A stretch of DNA of 64,000 nucleotides. Origin: Nocardioides bizhenqiangii. Lineage in GTDB: Bacteria; Actinomycetota; Actinomycetes; Propionibacteriales; Nocardioidaceae. This document shows, in pieces, positions 42,722 to 52,685 of the stretch. A program made the position numbers and the translations under genes. Numbering within the stretch: position 1 is the first letter of the stretch; every line of letters begins with the position of its first letter. The notes below the pieces were generated by a model. That model was not told the DNA's origin. It made no database searches and saw only the letters and a program-made list of their open reading frames with translations. The stretch spans positions 3,347,501 through 3,411,500 of the forward strand of contig NZ_CP141059.1 in NCBI RefSeq assembly GCF_034661235.1. Direction: 5' to 3'.

Positions 42722-45700
42722 TCACTCCAGCAGGTGATCGAGGGCCCTCCCCATCACCTCGTTGCGCTCGTCCGCGGTCGAGACGCCCTCCAGGCCGAAG
42801 CCCAGCAGCAAGGAGCGCGGGGTCGCGATCGCGTTGCCGACCGGGAAGCCGGAGGCGTCGGTGCGGATGAAGTTGTTGGAGTTGGGCGCACTGCCGGGGG
42901 GTGGGCCGGTGACCTCCCAGCCGCCGAGGTCGCCCTCGAACGACGTCGACGTGCCGTCGGGGAGAGTGATGTCGTCGACGAAGACGCCGAGGTTCTGGGT
43001 GCCCCAGTCACTGACGTAGGCGATCGAGATCTCGACCGACCCGCCGGCCCACTCCGAGAGGTCGACGCTCCACTCCTGCCAGCCGCTCGAGCTGCCGCTC
43101 GCGGCGTGCCACTCGCCGCTGGAGCCGGTCGCCGTGCAGTTCCCGGCGCCGTCGGACGTCTGGTAGTGCGCCAGGTGCGGGTGCAGCTCCTCGATCCACC
43201 CCGAGGCGCAGCTCTCGCCGGTCGACGGGGAAGTGTGACCGTTGGCATCGGGCAGAGTGGTCCAGTCATCGTCACCCGGCGTGCGGGCCTCGACTGTCAA
43301 GAAGTCCCAGTCCGGCTCGGTGTCGTACGACGTCCAGAAGCTCAGCGAGCCTCCACCGGCGGGGACCGCGACTTCCCGAGTCAACCGCTTGTAGGACACG
43401 TCGGCGATCTGGGAGTACACGTACTGCGTGCCGCTGTGCGGGTCGAACGGCCCGCCCGGCTTGTCCCAGCGCGCCGCCGGCCAGCTCTCGAACTGCTTGA
43501 ACTCGTCGACCGGGAGGATGCCGCTCGTGGAGATGAACGAGCCCGTGTGGTCCTGGTTGTCCGCGCTGTCGGGCCCGTTGAGCGACGCCAGGATCCCGTC
43601 CAGCGGCTCGTCGATGCCCGTGACGTCGAACGCCGTACCGTCCTCGGCGATCCCGTCGCCCCCGACGGCGAGGTAGCCGCCGAAGTAGTACTGCAGCACG
43701 TCGTTCGTCCCGTCGCCGGAGCCGCGCAGGAGCAGGCACCGACGCGAGTCGGTGCCGGGCGGCAGGGGGTTGCAGGCGATCTCGCCCTTGGGGTCGTAGT
43801 ACTGGTTGCCGACGACGGCCGTGTACTGCTGCCCGGCCCAGTTGCCGGTGTAGAGGACCTTGCCGCCCTCGTTCATGTAGGAGCGCATCTCGAGCATCTC
43901 GTCGAGGGCCAGCCGGTCGGCGTTGCCGGCGCCCGTGCCTGTCCTGCGGGTCACGATGTCGTCACCGGAGTACCAGATCACCGCGTCGTAGTGGCTCAGC
44001 ACACCGAGCACGTCCGGGGCGACCCGGCCGTTGGCGTCGACGTCGTAGACGTCGCCGGTCTCGCCGTTGGCCTCGAGCGCGTCCAGGTAGTAGTCGGTGT
44101 AGTGCGGTCCGGGTGCCTGCACGGGCGATGCGCCCGTGTAGTCCTCCGCGGCCACGACGAGCACCCGGTTGCCGGTCTCCGAGACGGCGTCGTAGGTGAA
44201 CGAGTCGCTCGTCTCGCCGCCGCCTTCGAACCAGACCTCGACCGAGTCACCGGGGTCGGTGCCGGTCACCACGCCGCGCATCTGGTGGTAGTGCACCGAG
44301 GCGGGGGTGTACGTCTCCCCGCCGTCCCACTCCGCCGTCGGAGCCGACTGCACGGCACCGTCGTTGATGCGGTACTTCAGCGTCACCGGGCCGAGGCTGC
44401 GCTTGGCGATCACGGCCACCGGCTGCGGGTCGCCGTACGACTTGGTGAAGCTGAACTGCGCCTCCGGGATACCGCGCTTGTAGGGGTCGGCGCTGTCGAC
44501 GTAGAACGGCTCGGTCTCGATGCCGGTCACGGTCTTCGGGTCGTCGGGGTCGACCGCGGATCGGGCCACGGAGTGCGCGAACGGCAGGTTGCGCAGGAAC
44601 TCCTCCTGCACCAGCTGCTCGTCGTCCGGGAAGACGAAGCCGCACCCGTCGCAGCCCGCAGACAGCTCGGGCGTCCAGGCGAGCGCGCCGGTCTGGGCGT
44701 GGGCGTAGTCGGTGGTCTCGCCGTTCGTCACGTAGAGGACGTCGGACGACAGCCCGGGATGGAAGTCCTCGATCGCGGGCTCGTCGAGGTTCCCCGACAG
44801 TGCGTAGTAGATCGGATCGTCGGACGTCGGGGTCCCGATCTGCCAGCCCTCGGCGTAGAGGATCCACCGGCCGTTGGAGTGGTAGTTGATCTGGAACGCG
44901 AAGCCGATCCGGTCGAGCAGCCCGACCATCGCCTTGGTCTCCGGCTCGGAGAGCGGAGCCGGGCCGCGGTAGGTCTGGCTGGACTGGATCGAGGAGGATC
45001 CCTCGTTGTCATAGCCCCAGTGGTTGGGGAAGTTGCGGTTGGGGTCGACACCGTCGACGCCGGTGATCTGGCCGTCGCCGTTGTTGTCGCGCAGGTTCTT
45101 CCGCCACAGCCGCTCGACGTCGAAGGAGTACTGGTAACCGTCGGGGTTGGCGACCGGCACGAACCACAGCTCGGTCGTCTTCAGAAGGTTCCGCACCGCT
45201 TTGTCGTTGGCTCGCCAGCGATCGATGTAGTGCTTCATCAGCCGCCGCGTCACCTCGGTGGCGATCCACTCCCGGGCGTGCTGGGTGCCGCTGTACAACA
45301 CCGCCGGACGGCTGCCGTCGACCTTGCCCCGCGCCCCTTGGGTGAGCTTGAGCGCCAGGATCTCGCGGCCCTGGTGGGTCGTTCCGATCTTCACCAGCTT
45401 CGCGATCTGCGGGTTCGCTCTGGCCGCCGCACGGAGCTGGTCGCGGATGCCACCCGGCTCGTCGTAGGACCGCCAGACGTTGTAGCCGCCGACAGCCTGG
45501 GAGTTCGCGAACTGGCGGACGGTCTGCCCGCCCTTGACCCGGGTCAGCTTCAGGTCGAAGCCCTGGGAGCGCAGACGCGCAGCGTCCGCGCGGTCGACGA
45601 TCAGCTCGACCTCGACCCGTTTGCCGGCTTGATCCGAGTGCGGCTGCTCGCCGAGGTCGAAACCCTGCGCGGCGAGGCTGGACCACTGGTCCGGCGTCAC

Positions 45701-45829
45701 CATCGTCGTGTAGACGTCGAGCGGGCCTCCCGCTTTGTCCGGAGGGGCGGGGGCAGCGCCTCCCGGGACCGCGGCGAGCGCGGCGATGAGGATGGCAGCA
45801 GCAAAGACGATTCCGAGTAGACGACGCAT
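42722..45829 (-). CDS. Large secreted M14 zinc carboxypeptidase
   Basis: 1035 residues. Signal peptide at 1-25 (MRRLLGIVFAAAILIAALAAV ... AA), propeptide-like segment (about 35-110), then the M14 catalytic domain (about 112-410) with zinc ligands H184 and E187 (GTQHAREW), H317 (INYHSNG) and the catalytic Glu388 (TPELS). Repeat domains follow: a beta-sandwich, a ThuA-like/Ig-like region (VLVVAAEDYTGASPVQ) and a C-terminal immune-inhibitor-A-like jelly roll (VEVWFEGGG; EWSVDLSEWAGGSVEISIAYVSDWG). Exported peptidase for protein scavenging. GGAGG precedes ATG 45829. Confidence 0.9.
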   Translation of the reverse strand: MRRLLGIVFAAAILIAALAAVPGGAAPAPPDKAGGPLDVYTTMVTPDQWSSLAAQGFDLGEQPHSDQAGKRVEVELIVDRADAARLRSQGFDLKLTRVKGGQTVRQFANSQAVGGYNVWRSYDEPGGIRDQLRAAARANPQIAKLVKIGTTHQGREILALKLTQGARGKVDGSRPAVLYSGTQHAREWIATEVTRRLMKHYIDRWRANDKAVRNLLKTTELWFVPVANPDGYQYSFDVERLWRKNLRDNNGDGQITGVDGVDPNRNFPNHWGYDNEGSSSIQSSQTYRGPAPLSEPETKAMVGLLDRIGFAFQINYHSNGRWILYAEGWQIGTPTSDDPIYYALSGNLDEPAIEDFHPGLSSDVLYVTNGETTDYAHAQTGALAWTPELSAGCDGCGFVFPDDEQLVQEEFLRNLPFAHSVARSAVDPDDPKTVTGIETEPFYVDSADPYKRGIPEAQFSFTKSYGDPQPVAVIAKRSLGPVTLKYRINDGAVQSAPTAEWDGGETYTPASVHYHQMRGVVTGTDPGDSVEVWFEGGGETSDSFTYDAVSETGNRVLVVAAEDYTGASPVQAPGPHYTDYYLDALEANGETGDVYDVDANGRVAPDVLGVLSHYDAVIWYSGDDIVTRRTGTGAGNADRLALDEMLEMRSYMNEGGKVLYTGNWAGQQYTAVVGNQYYDPKGEIACNPLPPGTDSRRCLLLRGSGDGTNDVLQYYFGGYLAVGGDGIAEDGTAFDVTGIDEPLDGILASLNGPDSADNQDHTGSFISTSGILPVDEFKQFESWPAARWDKPGGPFDPHSGTQYVYSQIADVSYKRLTREVAVPAGGGSLSFWTSYDTEPDWDFLTVEARTPGDDDWTTLPDANGHTSPSTGESCASGWIEELHPHLAHYQTSDGAGNCTATGSSGEWHAASGSSSGWQEWSVDLSEWAGGSVEISIAYVSDWGTQNLGVFVDDITLPDGTSTSFEGDLGGWEVTGPPPGSAPNSNNFIRTDASGFPVGNAIATPRSLLLGFGLEGVSTADERNEVMGRALDHLLE

Positions 45830-46031: not shown

Positions 46032-47267
46032 TCAGCGGAAGGCGGGCGGACCGCCCTGGAGCGCCCGGCCTGCGGCCTCGTTGTCGGCGAGGAAGTTCGG
46101 CACCTGGTTCTCGGCTTCGTAGTAGCGGTGGAAGACCGGGGTCTGCGAGCCGGACATCGGCGGCACGATCCAGCTCCAGTCGGCAGGGCAGCGGCGACCC
46201 GCCCGCTCCTCCCGCTCCAAGTGGGTGAGGAACCTGCGGGACTCGGTGTGGTGGTCGGTGATGGTCACGCCGGTCACTCGGAACGAGTGCAGTACCGCAC
46301 GATTGATCTCGACCAAGGCCTGGTCTCGCCACAGGGTCGCCTCGTCCGAGGTGTCGAGCCCCATTCGTTTCGCAACTTCCGGTACCAGGTCATAGCGGTC
46401 GCTGTCGCCCAAGTTGCGGGCCCCGATCTCCGTGCCCATGTACCAACCGTTGAATGGCGCAGCCGGGTAGGAGACACCGCCGATGACAAGCAGGCTGTTG
46501 CTGATGACCGGGACCGCGTGCCACCGCATGCCCATACCGGCGAACCATGTCAGCTCGGGGTGCTCAAGCGGGACCTCATGTACCGCTTGGCCGGGGACCT
46601 GGAACAACCGCGGTCCCTCCTCGACGGTCTCCACCACAAGCGGGAGCACGTCAAAGGCACTCGGGAACTCGGGCGGCCGCCACCCGCGCTGGATCAGTTT
46701 GCTCGTGAAAGTTCGGTAGCGTGGGTCCCCGAGGACATCCCCGTCCGGCTGCTCGTATCCGGCGTACCGGATGAGTTGCTCGTTCCAGATCCTGGGGGCA
46801 GGTCTGGAGGGGGACTCGGGAGCGAACACGCTGATCATCGGCCGGATCTTCCCGCCGTTGTGAGCCTCTCGCAGATGCTCGAAGCAGCGCGCGGCCACGC
46901 TGCCGGCGTCGGAGACCGTCCTCAGGTCGCGCACCTGCAGGCTCTGCCAGTACAGCCGACCGATGCACCGTGCGTTGTTGCGCCAGGCGACGCGGGCGCC
47001 GAAGGCCAGCTCCTCAGCGGTGTGCCAGTAGGTCCCGGTCATGTCGATTTCGCGCATCACCGCGGCGATCCGCGGCCCCAACGGCCCGGGCTGGGGGTTC
47101 TCGGCGTGGAAGAGCTCGAGGAACTCCTCGGCCTCCGCCCGATCTACCTCGATGTCGGCGCTACCGGGGCTTCGCTCGGGGTCGGGCTGGCTCAGGCGAT
47201 TTTGTGTCACCGGCTGGTCGGTCGGGTCGGTGTGGGCAGGGCAGCACTCGTGGTGTTGCGTCGTCAT
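46032..47267 (-). CDS. nos: Bacterial nitric oxide synthase (oxygenase domain)
   Basis: 411 residues. Heme thiolate Cys101 in WRNNARCIGRLYW and the arginine-binding Glu280 in FNGWYMGTEIGARN are intact; MGMRWHAVPVISN and VFHRYYEAENQVPNF (pterin/C-terminal region) also match. It makes NO and citrulline from arginine but lacks the reductase half of animal enzymes, so needs an outside electron donor. The N-terminal about 45 residues exceed the usual bacterial form and carry HHECCPAH. Follows the DivIVA-like gene by 69 bases, last of a three-gene operon. Its ribosome binding site lies in a perfect 20-bp palindrome. Confidence 0.95.
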   Translation of the reverse strand: MTTQHHECCPAHTDPTDQPVTQNRLSQPDPERSPGSADIEVDRAEAEEFLELFHAENPQPGPLGPRIAAVMREIDMTGTYWHTAEELAFGARVAWRNNARCIGRLYWQSLQVRDLRTVSDAGSVAARCFEHLREAHNGGKIRPMISVFAPESPSRPAPRIWNEQLIRYAGYEQPDGDVLGDPRYRTFTSKLIQRGWRPPEFPSAFDVLPLVVETVEEGPRLFQVPGQAVHEVPLEHPELTWFAGMGMRWHAVPVISNSLLVIGGVSYPAAPFNGWYMGTEIGARNLGDSDRYDLVPEVAKRMGLDTSDEATLWRDQALVEINRAVLHSFRVTGVTITDHHTESRRFLTHLEREERAGRRCPADWSWIVPPMSGSQTPVFHRYYEAENQVPNFLADNEAAGRALQGGPPAFR

Positions 47268-47268
47268 G

Positions 47269-47288
47269 TCCCTCCCCCGGGGGAGGGA
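47269..47288 (-). promoter_or_regulatory. Perfect 20-bp palindrome covering the NOS ribosome binding site
   Basis: TCCCTCCCCC joined to GGGGGAGGGA, ten perfect base pairs, ending one base before the NOS ATG. The 3' arm is the Shine-Dalgarno, so folding would hide it. Could equally be a protein-binding operator. Confidence 0.65.
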
Positions 47289-47336
47289 TTCCCTGATCCA
47301 CCCATCCGAGAGGGTCTCAGAAGATCTCGCACCCGA

Positions 47337-47954
47337 TCAGTCCGAGCCAGGCGACTCCGGTCCGCTCCCGTTGCGGGCGCGGACCTGCCAGTCGCTCAAG
47401 TCGTCGAACAGGGGGTCGATCTGGTGGGTCGCCGCGGAACCCGACTCGGTGGCCGGATGGGTGCTCCCAAGCCGGTCGACCTCGGTGGCGAACGAGTCCA
47501 TGATCGACTTCATCTGTGCCTGGGCCGTCTGTGCGTAGGAACGAACCTGCTGCCCGGCCGTGTCCATGGCCTCCTCCACGACTTTGCGCTCGTGTGCGCG
47601 CGCTTGGCCGATGCGGTCGCGGGCGTCCCGGCTGACGTCCTCGACCATCTCCTCGGCCACGAGCTGTGCTTGGCTGAACAGTTGGACGACCTGTTCGTTG
47701 ACGCGGTCGCCGACCTGTTCGTACTCGTCTAGCGCCGCCTGCACGCGCTGCAACTCTGTCCGGAGACGGTCGTTCTCGGCCCGGCTCTCGCGGAGCTCGC
47801 TCTCTGTGGCTTGCACCTGGCCAGCCAACAGGTCGAGGTACTCGTACACCTCAGCCGCGTCGATGCCACGCATCCGGCGCCGGAAGGTCTCGTCGCGGAT
47901 CGACTCGGGTGACCGGTAGTGCGGAGAGTCCTGGCGGTCGTTGGTGTTCGTCAC
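47337..47954 (-). CDS. DivIVA-domain coiled-coil protein
   Basis: 205 residues. N-terminal DivIVA-type segment (SPESIRDETFRRRMRGIDAAEVYEYLDLLAGQVQATE, about 14-50), then a long coiled coil (about 50-165: ESELRESRAENDRLRTELQRVQ; SQAQLVAEEMVEDVSRDARDRIGQARAHERKVVEEAM) and a polar tail. DivIVA/Wag31 proteins mark curved membrane at poles and septa in actinobacteria. This is a shorter, divergent member sitting between NO genes; its job may be to place or scaffold NO metabolism at the membrane (inference). Its first 104 bases overlap the flavohemoglobin gene. Confidence 0.85.
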   Translation of the reverse strand: MTNTNDRQDSPHYRSPESIRDETFRRRMRGIDAAEVYEYLDLLAGQVQATESELRESRAENDRLRTELQRVQAALDEYEQVGDRVNEQVVQLFSQAQLVAEEMVEDVSRDARDRIGQARAHERKVVEEAMDTAGQQVRSYAQTAQAQMKSIMDSFATEVDRLGSTHPATESGSAATHQIDPLFDDLSDWQVRARNGSGPESPGSD

Positions 47955-49125
47955 TTGTTGTCTCCTGCCTGTTCAGCGCTCGCTCGGCGGTGTGATCGTC
48001 CGCGGCCGCGTAGTAAAAGTGCTCGTACTTGATGTGCTCGGGGTGCATGCCCCTACTAGCCAACTGCTCCAGCGTGTGCGCGACCATCTGCGGACCGCCG
48101 CACACCATCGCCGTGCGCCCGTCCAGCGTCTGCCGGGCCGCGACCGTGCCGACCTTCCCGCGCGTCCCGGGATAGGACGAATCGTCAGACACGACCTCCG
48201 TGTAGTCGAACCACGGCCGCTTCTGGGCCAGCTCTCGCAACCGGGGGCGGTCGTAGAGGTGCCAGGGCATTCGGACGCCGTGGAGGAGATGGACCCGCGG
48301 CGCGGTGCGAGACCGCTGCCACTCGTGATCGATCTGCTCGAGGACCGCGAGGAGTGGGGCGAGACCCGTTCCACCAGCGACCATCAGCAGATCTTTCGAG
48401 TCCTCTGCCCGCCGGGTCAGCCGCTCGCCCACCGGCGCCCCCAACTTCACGACGTCGCCGACCTTCAGGGACCGCACCGCGGTCGGGCTCACCTGGCCAC
48501 CGTCGATCTGTTGCACATGCAGGTCGATCGAGCCGTCCCGGCGCGGAGCGTTGGCCGGGCTGAAGTACCGCCACAGCCGAGGGCGTTGCGGGATCTCCAT
48601 GGACACCGACTGGCCGGGAAGGAACCCGAACGCGCGCCGGGGCCGGACCGTCAGCAGCGTGAGGTCCATGGTCCGTCGCTCGACCGAGACCACATCGGCG
48701 TCCCACCAGTCAGGGCTGGACTCCGAGGACGTCTCCGCTGCCTCGACCATCATCCGCGCGATCACCTGGTAGGCCGCCGTCCAGTGCGCGGCGAGCTCCT
48801 CGTCCCATTCGGACCCCAGGAAGTGCTTCAGGGTTGCGCACAGCGAGGCGCCGACTGCGTTGTAGTGATCCGCGACCACGGCGTACTTACGGTGGTCGCG
48901 GCCGAGGTGTTGCAGGAACGCCGCATCATTCTCGATCTGGTCGGCGTGGCTGACAATCCTGCCGAGTGCGCTGACAAGCTTGTCCCGCTGGTTCGACATG
49001 GAGAGCGGGAACATCGACCGCACCTCAGGATGGGACACGAAGAGGTGCGAGTAGAAGTACAGCGGCACCTGTTCCCCGTGCTCCGTCACCCGATCCCAAC
49101 TGCGCTGCAGGGCATATGCATCCAT
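47851..49125 (-). CDS. Flavohemoglobin (globin + FAD/NAD reductase), probable NO dioxygenase
   Basis: 424 residues. Globin at 1-135: B10 Tyr25 (FYSHLF), Gln46 (MSNQRDK), proximal His78 (GRDHRKY). FAD domain (WRYFSPANAP, about 190-200) and NAD domain (VAGGTGLAPLL; VCGGPQMVAH). FAD motif and spacing differ from E. coli Hmp and recall the mycobacterial type II forms. It converts NO plus O2 to nitrate, or could lend electrons to NOS. The last 30 or so residues lie past the reductase fold and overlap the DivIVA-like gene by 104 bases. First gene of the NO operon. Confidence 0.9.
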   Translation of the reverse strand: MDAYALQRSWDRVTEHGEQVPLYFYSHLFVSHPEVRSMFPLSMSNQRDKLVSALGRIVSHADQIENDAAFLQHLGRDHRKYAVVADHYNAVGASLCATLKHFLGSEWDEELAAHWTAAYQVIARMMVEAAETSSESSPDWWDADVVSVERRTMDLTLLTVRPRRAFGFLPGQSVSMEIPQRPRLWRYFSPANAPRRDGSIDLHVQQIDGGQVSPTAVRSLKVGDVVKLGAPVGERLTRRAEDSKDLLMVAGGTGLAPLLAVLEQIDHEWQRSRTAPRVHLLHGVRMPWHLYDRPRLRELAQKRPWFDYTEVVSDDSSYPGTRGKVGTVAARQTLDGRTAMVCGGPQMVAHTLEQLASRGMHPEHIKYEHFYYAAADDHTAERALNRQETTSDEHQRPPGLSALPVTRVDPRRDLPAPDAWHRRG

Positions 49126-49291
49126 CGGGCTTCGCTATCCGTCTCGTGGAGGCAGCTCCTCGAACGAAACGGGCGGCCCATCAGCGGGCACATTGCGCTG
49201 CCGGTCGTCGGCAGCTCGAGCGGATAGGTACTGCTTTGACAAAGGGTTCCCTCCCTGTCCAGTCCCCCGTCCCTCCCCGCCACCGGCTCCC

Positions 49292-49621
49292 TCAAGCCAG
49301 CGGGGCGAAACGGGCGGATCGGAATGAGTCGCGGAGTCTAACAGGCGTCGAGGAACGCAGCATCAGTCGACCGTCGACGTCCAGCTCCATCGTCCAGTCG
49401 GCGAGCGAGGGGACGTCATGCATCACGTGGAGGAGGACCTCCTCGATGATGGACCGCAGGCCGCGGGCTCCGGTGGCGCGCTCCATCGCCTTGTCGGCGA
49501 TGCCCTCGATGGCGTCGTCGGTGAACTCGATATCGACGCCACGGAGCAACCGGCGGACCAGCCTGAGCCCTCGCCTAGCGGCTCGGGCTACTCGACCAGC
49601 GGCGGGTAGGGGCCTCGACAA
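49292..49621 (-). pseudogene. Truncated duplicate of clpX 3' region
   Basis: Bases 49407-49540 repeat clpX bases 49746-49879 at an offset of 339, with seven differences by my count. They encode [20 protein letters not shown] and [19 protein letters not shown], the ClpX C-terminal small domain. Both flanks are unrelated: upstream is dispersed-repeat sequence ([17 protein letters not shown]), downstream an unrelated tail ([20 protein letters not shown]). It lacks AAA and zinc domains and cannot work as an unfoldase. Marks the border between accessory DNA and the clp locus. Confidence 0.85.
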
Positions 49622-49642: not shown

Positions 49643-50932
<1,290 letters not shown>

Positions 50933-51032
50933 GGGCGGTACTCCTCACGTAATGCGGACTCCCCGACCGTACTCCCTGGTACCCCTTCCACGGGAGGGGA
51001 CACGAGGGGCGCGGCGGGATGGTCATGATCGG

Positions 51033-51641
51033 TCAGGTGAGCGCCGGAGTGCCCTTGAGCGACTCCAGCACCGAGTCGATGAGACCGTACTCGATCGCCT
51101 GCTCTGCGGTGAGGATCTTGTCGCGTTCGATGTCGCGGCTGACCTCTTCCATCGTCTTGTTGCTGTGGTCGCTGATCATCCGCTCGAGCATCTCCCGCAT
51201 CCGGAGGATCTCGTTGGCCTGGATCTCGATGTCCGAGGTCTGGCCGAAGGTGCCCTCGGTGTAGGGCTGGTGGATCAGGATCCGGCTGTTGGGCAGCGCC
51301 AGTCGCTTGCCCTGGGTGCCGGCGGCGAGAAGGATCGCGGCCGCGGACGCAGCCTGACCGATGCACACCGTCTGCACGTCCGGCTTGATGAACTGGATCG
51401 TGTCGTAGATCGCGGTCAGCGCCGTGAACGAGCCACCGGGGCTGTTGATGTAGATGCTGAGGTCCTGGTCGGGGTTCATCGACTGGAGGCACAGCAGCTG
51501 CGCGATCACCGCGTTGGCGACGTCGTCGGAGATCGGCGTGCCGAGGTAGATGATGCGGTCCTCGAACAGCTTCGCGTAGGGGTCGATCCGCCGGAAGCCG
51601 TACGACGTGCGCTCTTCCCACTGCGGGATGTAGTAGTTCAT
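51033..51641 (-). CDS. clpP2: ATP-dependent Clp protease proteolytic subunit ClpP2
   Basis: 202 residues. Catalytic Ser99 (IGQAASAAAILL) and His124 (RILIHQP), with Asp in the IERDKILTAEQA segment. The MNYYIPQWEERTSYGFRRIDPY start and SAAA context mark it as the actinobacterial ClpP2 ring subunit, which pairs with ClpP1 and docks ClpX. Five bases separate it from clpP1, so co-transcribed. Confidence 0.95.
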   Translation of the reverse strand: MNYYIPQWEERTSYGFRRIDPYAKLFEDRIIYLGTPISDDVANAVIAQLLCLQSMNPDQDLSIYINSPGGSFTALTAIYDTIQFIKPDVQTVCIGQAASAAAILLAAGTQGKRLALPNSRILIHQPYTEGTFGQTSDIEIQANEILRMREMLERMISDHSNKTMEEVSRDIERDKILTAEQAIEYGLIDSVLESLKGTPALT

Positions 51642-51646
51642 CTGCG

Positions 51647-52282
51647 TCAGTCCTTGTTCGAGTGGGCCGGGCGGCCCTCGTCGGCGGCGTCACGGGCACT
51701 CTTGACGACCTTGTCGACCAGTCCGTAGTCGACGGCCTCGCTAGCGGTGAACCAGCGGTCGCGGTCGGCGTCCTCACTGACCTGCTCGACGCTCTGGCCG
51801 GTGTGCTGGGAGATGAGCTCGAAGAGCACCTTCTTGATGTGCAGCGACTGCTGGGCCTGGATCTTGATGTCCGAGGCCGAGCCACCCATGCCGGAGGACG
51901 GCTGGTGCATCATGATCCGCGCGTGCGGCAGCGCGTAGCGCTTGCCCTTGGTGCCCGCGCAGAGCAGGAACTGGCCCATCGACGCCGCGAGCCCCATGCC
52001 GACGGTGGCGACGTCGTTGGGGATGTAGTTCATGGTGTCGTAGATGGCCATCCCCGCGTCGACCGAGCCGCCGGGCGAGTTGATGTGGAGGAAGATGTCC
52101 GCCTCGGGGTCCTCCGCCGACAGCAGCAGCAGCTGCGCGCAGATCGCGTTGGCGTTCTGGTCGCGGACCTCGGATCCGAGGAAGACGATCCGCTCCTTGA
52201 GCAGCCGGCTGTAGATGTTGTCGTCGAGAAGGTTGAGTCCGGGCGCGCCGTTCATCACGGGGCCGCTGGGATTCTGAGTCAC
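51647..52282 (-). CDS. clpP1: ATP-dependent Clp protease proteolytic subunit ClpP1
   Basis: 211 residues. Ser101 (MGLAASMGQFLL), His126 (RIMMHQP) and the Asp of EDADRDRWF complete the triad; HINSPGGSVDAGMAIYDTM is strongly conserved. Forms a mixed ClpP1P2 tetradecamer. GTG start; TAGTGT (52289-52294 on the minus strand) is six bases upstream, so the clpP1-clpP2(-clpX) transcript may be leaderless. An upstream tandem repeat reaches to within about 100 bases of this promoter region. Confidence 0.95.
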   Translation of the reverse strand: MTQNPSGPVMNGAPGLNLLDDNIYSRLLKERIVFLGSEVRDQNANAICAQLLLLSAEDPEADIFLHINSPGGSVDAGMAIYDTMNYIPNDVATVGMGLAASMGQFLLCAGTKGKRYALPHARIMMHQPSSGMGGSASDIKIQAQQSLHIKKVLFELISQHTGQSVEQVSEDADRDRWFTASEAVDYGLVDKVVKSARDAADEGRPAHSNKD

Positions 52283-52501: not shown

Positions 52502-52545
52502 GGCGTCTCGATACGCCCTCGCGCAGAGCGCTCGGGCTACTCGAC
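52502..52545. repeat. Dispersed palindromic repeat, inverted copy leading into tandem array
   Basis: GGCGTCTCGATACGCCCTCG ... GCGCTCGGGCTACTCGAC is the reverse complement of the copy A type. Its last part, GCTCGGGCTACTCGAC, is the unit amplified in the following array. Confidence 0.8.
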
Positions 52546-52685
52546 GACCGAAGCGGCTCGGGCTACTCGACGACCGAAGCGGCTCGGGCTACTCGACGAC
52601 CGAAGCGGCTCGGGCTACTCGACGACCGAAGCGGCTCGGGCTACTCGACGACCGAAGCGGCTCGGGCTACTCGACCACCGAAGGC
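52530..52685. repeat. 26-bp tandem repeat, six units
   Basis: Units begin at 52530, 52556, 52582, 52608, 52634 and 52660. The first five are identical (GCTCGGGCTACTCGAC then GACCGAAGCG); the sixth has changes near its end. Derived from the end of a dispersed repeat. The last unit contains the stop codon of the SRPBCC gene. With the flanking copies it fills the 384-base gap to clpP1. Confidence 0.95.

Follow-up and report, generated by a model that had tools for sequence, protein, structure and literature searches.

A nitric oxide synthase gene joined to globin-reductase and DivIVA-like genes in a conserved operon-like unit of Nocardioides and Kribbella

The window analysed here, 64,000 nucleotides (nt) of the Nocardioides bizhenqiangii genome (contig NZ_CP141059.1), contains three intact genes on its minus strand. 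They encode a fusion of a globin with flavin adenine dinucleotide (FAD)- and nicotinamide adenine dinucleotide (NAD)-binding domains (FHB), a DivIVA-like coiled-coil protein (DIV) and a nitric oxide (NO) synthase oxygenase (NOS), in this order by coordinates from 49125 to 46032 (Table 1). FHB and DIV overlap by 104 nt in different frames (47851-47954), and a gap of 69 nt separates DIV from NOS. The open reading frames (ORFs) and their Pfam matches bear out the coordinates and the common strand that the original prediction, drawn from the sequence alone, had assigned to these genes. Comparison of genome sequences establishes FHB, DIV and NOS as a conserved, tightly packed operon-like unit and indicates that the FHB–DIV linkage is older than the link to NOS.

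The conservation of the trio is seen in a sample of 391 genomes from 40 genera of the order to which the source genome belongs. NOS is encoded in 31 of these genomes, confined to two genera, and all 30 NOS loci returned by the order search, the window's included, are colinear FHB-DIV-NOS on one strand. In the 31st genome (G051) the genes are adjacent by coordinates, with the hidden Markov model (HMM) matches ordered NOS-DIV-FHB on the minus strand. A close DIV (at least 168 bits) occurs in exactly the 31 NOS genomes and in none of the 360 NOS-free ones. A wider set comprises 80 NOS loci kept from genome_contigs, out of at least 593 candidates encoding a relative; here the trio lies on one strand in the ten loci of highest identity (78-88%), which come from Kribbella and Nocardioides, except for one record that bears the name Streptomyces sp. 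SID13031. The adjacency that was originally to be sought across actinobacterial genomes is thus present in every NOS genome of the order as well as in these ten loci, and is not a peculiarity of the source genome. No recurrent neighbour of non-module NOS emerges from the 25 families listed (42 chosen proteins, 82 Pfam families), the commonest being FAD_binding_3, POTRA_1 and NAD_binding_8, each at 3/42.

Table 1. Genes and sequence features of the FHB–DIV–NOS locus (window coordinates)
Feature	Position	Strand	Description
FHB (globin–FAD-binding–NAD-binding fusion)	47851..49125	minus	ORF of 424 amino acids; Pfam Globin, FAD_binding_6, NAD_binding_1
DIV (DivIVA-like coiled-coil protein)	47337..47954	minus	205 amino acids; DivIVA N-domain from about residue 15, then long helix
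NOS oxygenase	46032..47267	minus	411 amino acids; PF02898; without reductase domain, without membrane segment
Perfect palindrome, 18 bp, CCCTCCCCCGGGGGAGGG	47270..47287		directly before NOS start codon; covers purine-rich ribosome-binding stretch
Operon upstream region	49126..49290	minus	contains stretch CCCTTTGTCAAAGCAGTACC, similar in form in other NOS-type operons

NOS scores 494 bits against the NO_synthase family PF02898 (cut-off 22.7) and matches solved NOS chains at E ~1e-110. The key residues expected of it, Cys101 and Glu280, are present, and we take them to be the haem ligand and a substrate residue, respectively. Near the N-terminus the window copy (CCPAH) and several relatives carry a CP(A/V/F)H motif, which resembles Cys-Pro haem-regulatory motifs. 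Pfam detects the oxygenase only, as anticipated for a NOS that lacks its own reductase domain. NOS also carries Ile255, which an alignment by eye to solved NOS chains places in a stretch where animal NOSs have Val; an Ile/Val difference between bacterial and animal NOS is mentioned in PMC9500659.

In many relatives the NOS frame opens just past DIV and adds 60-152 residues ahead of the NOS domain. When membrane helices are called by the Kyte-Doolittle scale (19-residue window, mean at least 1.6), this extension has at least one predicted helix in 19 of 33 NOS-type operons and two in 17; there is none in 13, the window copy among them, and the remaining operon, that of G051, is not classed. Mismatches at codon positions 1, 2 and 3 of the extension number 393, 233 and 623 (22 overlapping pairs, 2464 codons), a pattern which suggests that the stretch is translated and constrained. 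The AlphaFold2 (AF2) model of one long NOS has helices at residues 32-51 and 59-87, where the predicted local distance difference test (pLDDT) of ~46-72 signifies low confidence, and a protein-database search with the membrane segment, limited by low-complexity words, matched at least two proteins. In many relatives NOS itself is probably membrane-anchored, to judge from these predictions. If the first possible start after the DIV stop is taken, a rule that favours short distances, NOS begins at -4 to +9 nt from that stop in 28 of the 33 operons.

FHB matches Globin (57 bits), NAD_binding_1 (54 bits) and FAD_binding_6 (45 bits), and it is the only PF00042 globin of the source genome. In a ten-member alignment Tyr25, Phe39, Gln46, His78 and Tyr88 are invariant and Glu131 is nearly so. 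Tyr25, Phe39, Gln46 and the proximal His78 agree with the haem pocket of Hmp-type proteins, in which they would presumably be named B10 Tyr, CD1 Phe, E7 Gln and F8 His; their conservation counts for an NO-dioxygenase function. The closest PDB sequences are the hemoglobin-like flavoprotein globins 3wfw/3s1i, which we take to be from Methylacidiphilum, and the flavohemoprotein 1gvh. The FHB homologues listed are mostly ~391 or 423-434 residues long, so that the C-terminal end is variable. Besides flavohemoproteins, the best PDB sequence matches of the reductase part are cytochrome P450 reductase 5ogx and benzoate dioxygenase reductase 1krh. As NOS is a haem-thiolate enzyme and the window copy has no reductase of its own, these matches favour an alternative in which the FHB reductase would be a dedicated electron donor, passing electrons from NAD(P)H through FAD to the NOS haem, with the globin as brake or shuttle. 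Two other lineages, L028 and L266, in which an FHB-type gene adjoins NOS without a detected DIV, point the same way. However, a flavin mononucleotide (FMN) or flavodoxin step is usual for NOS, and FHB has the FAD and NAD domains only. Dedicated electron donation is considered unlikely, and the distribution of FHB described below also speaks against it.

The assignment of the middle gene to the DivIVA family, proposed from the sequence, is borne out by two curated cut-offs: DIV scores 43.3 bits against Pfam DivIVA (PF05103, cut-off 28) and 28.4 bits against TIGR03544 (cut-off 22). The score against the GpsB equivalog NF010725 is 32.6 bits, below its cut-off of 91. A profile search of the PDB finds GpsB 4ug1 (E 0.0012) and DivIVA 2wuj (E 0.019), and a single-sequence search of the PDB has no match at E 0.001. 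The AF2 model has one helix from residue 33 to 164, with pLDDT mostly 85-98. The source genome encodes two DivIVA-family proteins, and the BLAST similarity between DIV and the second is not significant.

FHB and DIV also occur together without NOS. With four candidates scored per genome, FHB is found at E <=1e-30 in 55 of the 391 order genomes, 31 with NOS (79-100% identity) and 24 without (54-62%). One FHB was seen per genome, split by a frame break in G087, and no sampled genome has both the NOS form and the NOS-free form. In all 24 NOS-free loci fetched a DIV homologue adjoins FHB, as called with HMMs built from five sequences each. The arrangement is truncated haemoglobin–FHB–DIV on one strand in 23 of them, and in the other (L149) the gene after FHB–DIV looks, by eye, like a second globin-reductase. 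Pfam confirms Bac_globin, Globin/FAD/NAD and DivIVA in tested examples from L145, L148 and L150, and FHB and DIV overlap by 4 nt in four of seven NOS-free loci inspected. At the class level, FHB is found at E <=1e-60 in 96 of 394 genomes. From 38 of these genomes 40 loci were chosen, 20 being the best matches outside the order and 20 taken from lower in the list; truncated haemoglobin–FHB–DIV is found in 16 of the 40, and FHB–DIV with another FHB-HMM match upstream in two. FHB–DIV is seen in nine families and the form with truncated haemoglobin in eight. The link of a globin-reductase with a DivIVA-type protein is therefore wider than the NOS operon and apparently undescribed.

With adjacent FHB and DIV genes that are relatives of the module's own, the window operon belongs with this module. 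It has no truncated haemoglobin directly upstream, and NOS lies downstream instead. Two PF01152 genes occur elsewhere in the source genome, one scoring 50 bits with the module's truncated-haemoglobin HMM. The presence of the same FHB in 24 genomes of the order without a NOS match means that its reductase domain did not arise for NOS, which weakens the idea that it evolved to feed the synthase. Because a truncated haemoglobin takes the place of NOS in the module, the handling of NO or O2 by globins would be its core function. Truncated haemoglobins are consistent with such a role, since PMC6950321 counts trHbN of Mycobacterium tuberculosis among the NO dioxygenases.

The same data bear on a plainer explanation, an ordinary operon for NO or nitrosative stress in which DIV would be a general coiled-coil protein unconnected with the pole, and NO from NOS would act as a soluble signal or cytoprotectant. 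The third partner varies within the order, yet it is always a haem protein, whether truncated haemoglobin, NOS or the second globin-reductase-like gene of L149, as such an operon would have it, and a long helix alone confers no localization on DIV. On the other hand, the N-terminal domain of DIV passes the curated DivIVA cut-offs and DIV keeps its place beside FHB across families. A DevR/DosR-type box upstream of FHB is likewise unsupported, the best candidates agreeing at 10-14 of 20 positions compared with up to 15 in shuffled sequences. This explanation appears distinctly unlikely.

Phylogenetic analysis places the NOS form inside the older module. In a maximum-likelihood tree of FHB (108 rows, 97 different, root at midpoint), the 43 NOS-linked rows group together as a single clade (100/100). 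With FHBs that have no module neighbours taken as outside, this clade lies within the module clade (86 rows, 99/93). The NOS-linked clade sits beside the truncated-haemoglobin forms of family f4 (90/84, not a starred fork) and does not group with those of its own Kribbella-like genus, which is represented in the sample by 28 genomes with the NOS form and nine with the truncated-haemoglobin form. In the NOS tree (88 rows), the 17 module NOSs included likewise group as a single clade (100/100), whose neighbour within a Pseudonocardiaceae group is Saccharopolyspora (94/96). The two trees imply separate histories for NOS and for FHB–DIV, which most simply would have met once in this lineage. In neither tree do the rows of L028 and L266, where a globin-reductase adjoins NOS, belong to the NOS clade, and both are long branches. 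In L028 a 31%-identical FHB lies directly upstream of NOS, and in L266 (2731-5063, genome G480) NOS is directly followed by the FHB-type gene. L266 is probably an independent pairing, and the two cases hint at repeated pairing between NOS and globin-reductases.

The genes might also travel together by descent without working together. The confinement of the NOS form to two genera of the order sample would agree with this, and so would the separation, in the FHB tree, of the NOS form from the truncated-haemoglobin form of its own genus, which allows for spread as a block. Yet the trees give NOS and FHB different origins that were later brought together, the adjacency holds in all 31 NOS genomes of the order, and a possible NOS start lies close behind DIV in most operons, even though the start rule favours such distances; descent alone is very improbable. 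Since truncated haemoglobin–FHB–DIV exists without NOS and encloses the NOS form in the tree, DIV would be the partner of FHB first. Thus the three-gene NO system originally envisaged stands in its conserved operon, its FHB haem pocket and its DivIVA-family partner, but DIV should be seen as primarily associated with FHB and only secondarily with NOS.

The surroundings of the operon have several further features. A CCTTGTCAACGCAGTACC-like stretch (CCCTTTGTCAAAGCAGTACC in the window) lies upstream of FHB in 15 of the 32 NOS-type upstream regions compared (the window region and loci L152-L181, L002 and L006). In 11 of the 15 a GTCGGC-N7-GCCGAC-like inverted repeat comes after this stretch, and in two its arms carry matching changes; the repeat, not intact in the window, is possibly an operator or a hairpin. 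The palindrome before NOS may possibly serve in translational control of that gene. The window operon is located just downstream of clpX and two clpP genes (49643-52282; names by eye). Between clpX and FHB there are 144 nt (49397-49540) with 93% identity to a portion of the 3' region of the clpX gene at 49643-50932, and this partial duplication may mark the insertion of the operon here. In L005 (9637-14230) NOS is followed by a tig-like gene, two clpP genes and clpX (names by eye), which is the same region from the other side. A tig-like gene beside NOS occurs in eight genomes and nine loci (L005 = L092), all of them in the Kribbella group that the FHB tree places closest to the window. Downstream of NOS, on the minus strand, an ORF of 1035 amino acids (42722-45829) resembles a secreted zinc carboxypeptidase by eye, and a tandem repeat with a 26-bp unit (5.9 copies, 99% matches) occupies 52530-52683.

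The explanation that best fits these observations, and to which about an even chance is given, is that NOS was plugged into an older actinobacterial scaffold module of FHB and a DivIVA-like protein, where NO would be made and turned to nitrate locally. NOS would produce NO and citrulline from arginine, and FHB, acting as an NO dioxygenase with NAD(P)H and O2, would consume the NO close to its source by converting it to nitrate. By holding FHB, DIV would also keep NOS in place, whether at the membrane, at the growing pole or at the septum. Overall, arginine would locally yield citrulline and NO, the NO would become nitrate, and DIV would determine where NO can act. The source genome encodes NirB (1045 bits), and nitrite reduction or reuse is thus probably possible. 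A bolder version, which is tentative and somewhat improbable as it stands, has the DivIVA-like scaffold putting membrane-associated NOS and NO-consuming FHB at hyphal tips or septa, where NO would act locally in polar growth or division. The arrangement would have been built by the exchange of truncated haemoglobin for NOS in an older globin–DivIVA module, which would itself tie haem and NO chemistry to the pole across actinobacteria.

Several results weigh against the plugging of NOS into a localized FHB–DIV module. The likeness of DIV to solved DivIVA structures is weak and limited to the N-terminal domain, and does not by itself imply polar targeting. FHB scores 123 bits against the NCBIfam NO-inducible flavohemoprotein NF009805, far below its equivalog cut-off of 432; the name flavohemoglobin used at first is accordingly justified by the domain architecture and haem-pocket residues of NO dioxygenases, but not by the Hmp equivalog. 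The NOS of the window has no hydrophobic extension and is spaced 69 nt from DIV. Since the trio is absent from the remaining 70 of the 80 loci kept, it is not a general requirement of NOS. In 68 of the 80 actinobacterial loci tblastn finds neither FHB nor DIV beside NOS, and in L071 there is a globin match near NOS on the opposite strand. At the class level 22 of the 40 FHB loci have neither DIV nor truncated haemoglobin, although the small HMMs could miss divergent ones. Finally, the FHB of L266 falls inside the wider module clade on its long branch and yet adjoins NOS without a detected DIV.

The operon bears on two general questions, the source of electrons for bacterial NOS and the means by which cells withstand the NO they make. 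It offers genetically linked candidates for both, and DIV, as a putative scaffold, could determine where NO is released. The NOS-free module can be tested in laboratory actinobacteria, and the exchange between NOS and truncated haemoglobin is a natural experiment on the function of the module. In line with the original statement that no described system joining the three was known, among the matches listed (titles and abstract beginnings) from the open-licence full-text literature neither the FHB–DIV–NOS operon nor the NOS-free module is described. PMC4255298 names NOS, flavohemoglobin and DivIVA, but in the parts available NOS appears once, in the statement that most actinobacteria have no obvious NOS, while flavohemoglobin is named just in the title of a reference.

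Among known systems, Hmp-type flavohaemoglobins have the globin, FAD and NAD domains in a single chain and the haem-pocket residues in common with FHB, which differs from them in its low equivalog score and in that its globin part scores as high with 3wfw/3s1i as the whole protein does with 1gvh. The DivIVA/GpsB family shares with DIV the N-terminal DivIVA domain and the long helix, and DIV is distinguished by its adjoining globin gene. TxtD and RufN are bacterial NOS oxygenases of the thaxtomin and rufomycin natural-product clusters (PMC9500659), in which NO serves a nitrating P450. The window NOS is flanked instead by the carboxypeptidase-like gene and by clpX and clpP, as named by eye, no search of the wider window for such a cluster having been made. 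In Staphylococcus aureus, NO from NOS has been proposed to become nitrate via the flavohaemoglobin Hmp (PMC5539425, PMC6104048). This likewise combines a NOS oxygenase with a flavohaemoglobin, and the available parts of these two sources mention neither a shared operon nor a DivIVA partner. The SyNOS protein of Synechococcus PCC 7335, a globin–NOS oxygenase–reductase fusion which takes arginine nitrogen to nitrate (PMC6104048), resembles the window operon in combining globin, flavin reductase and NOS oxygenase, the conversion of arginine nitrogen to nitrate being a feature of SyNOS. SyNOS is one polypeptide, whereas the window has separate ORFs, a reductase with FAD and NAD domains only that is attached to the globin, and an additional DivIVA-like protein.

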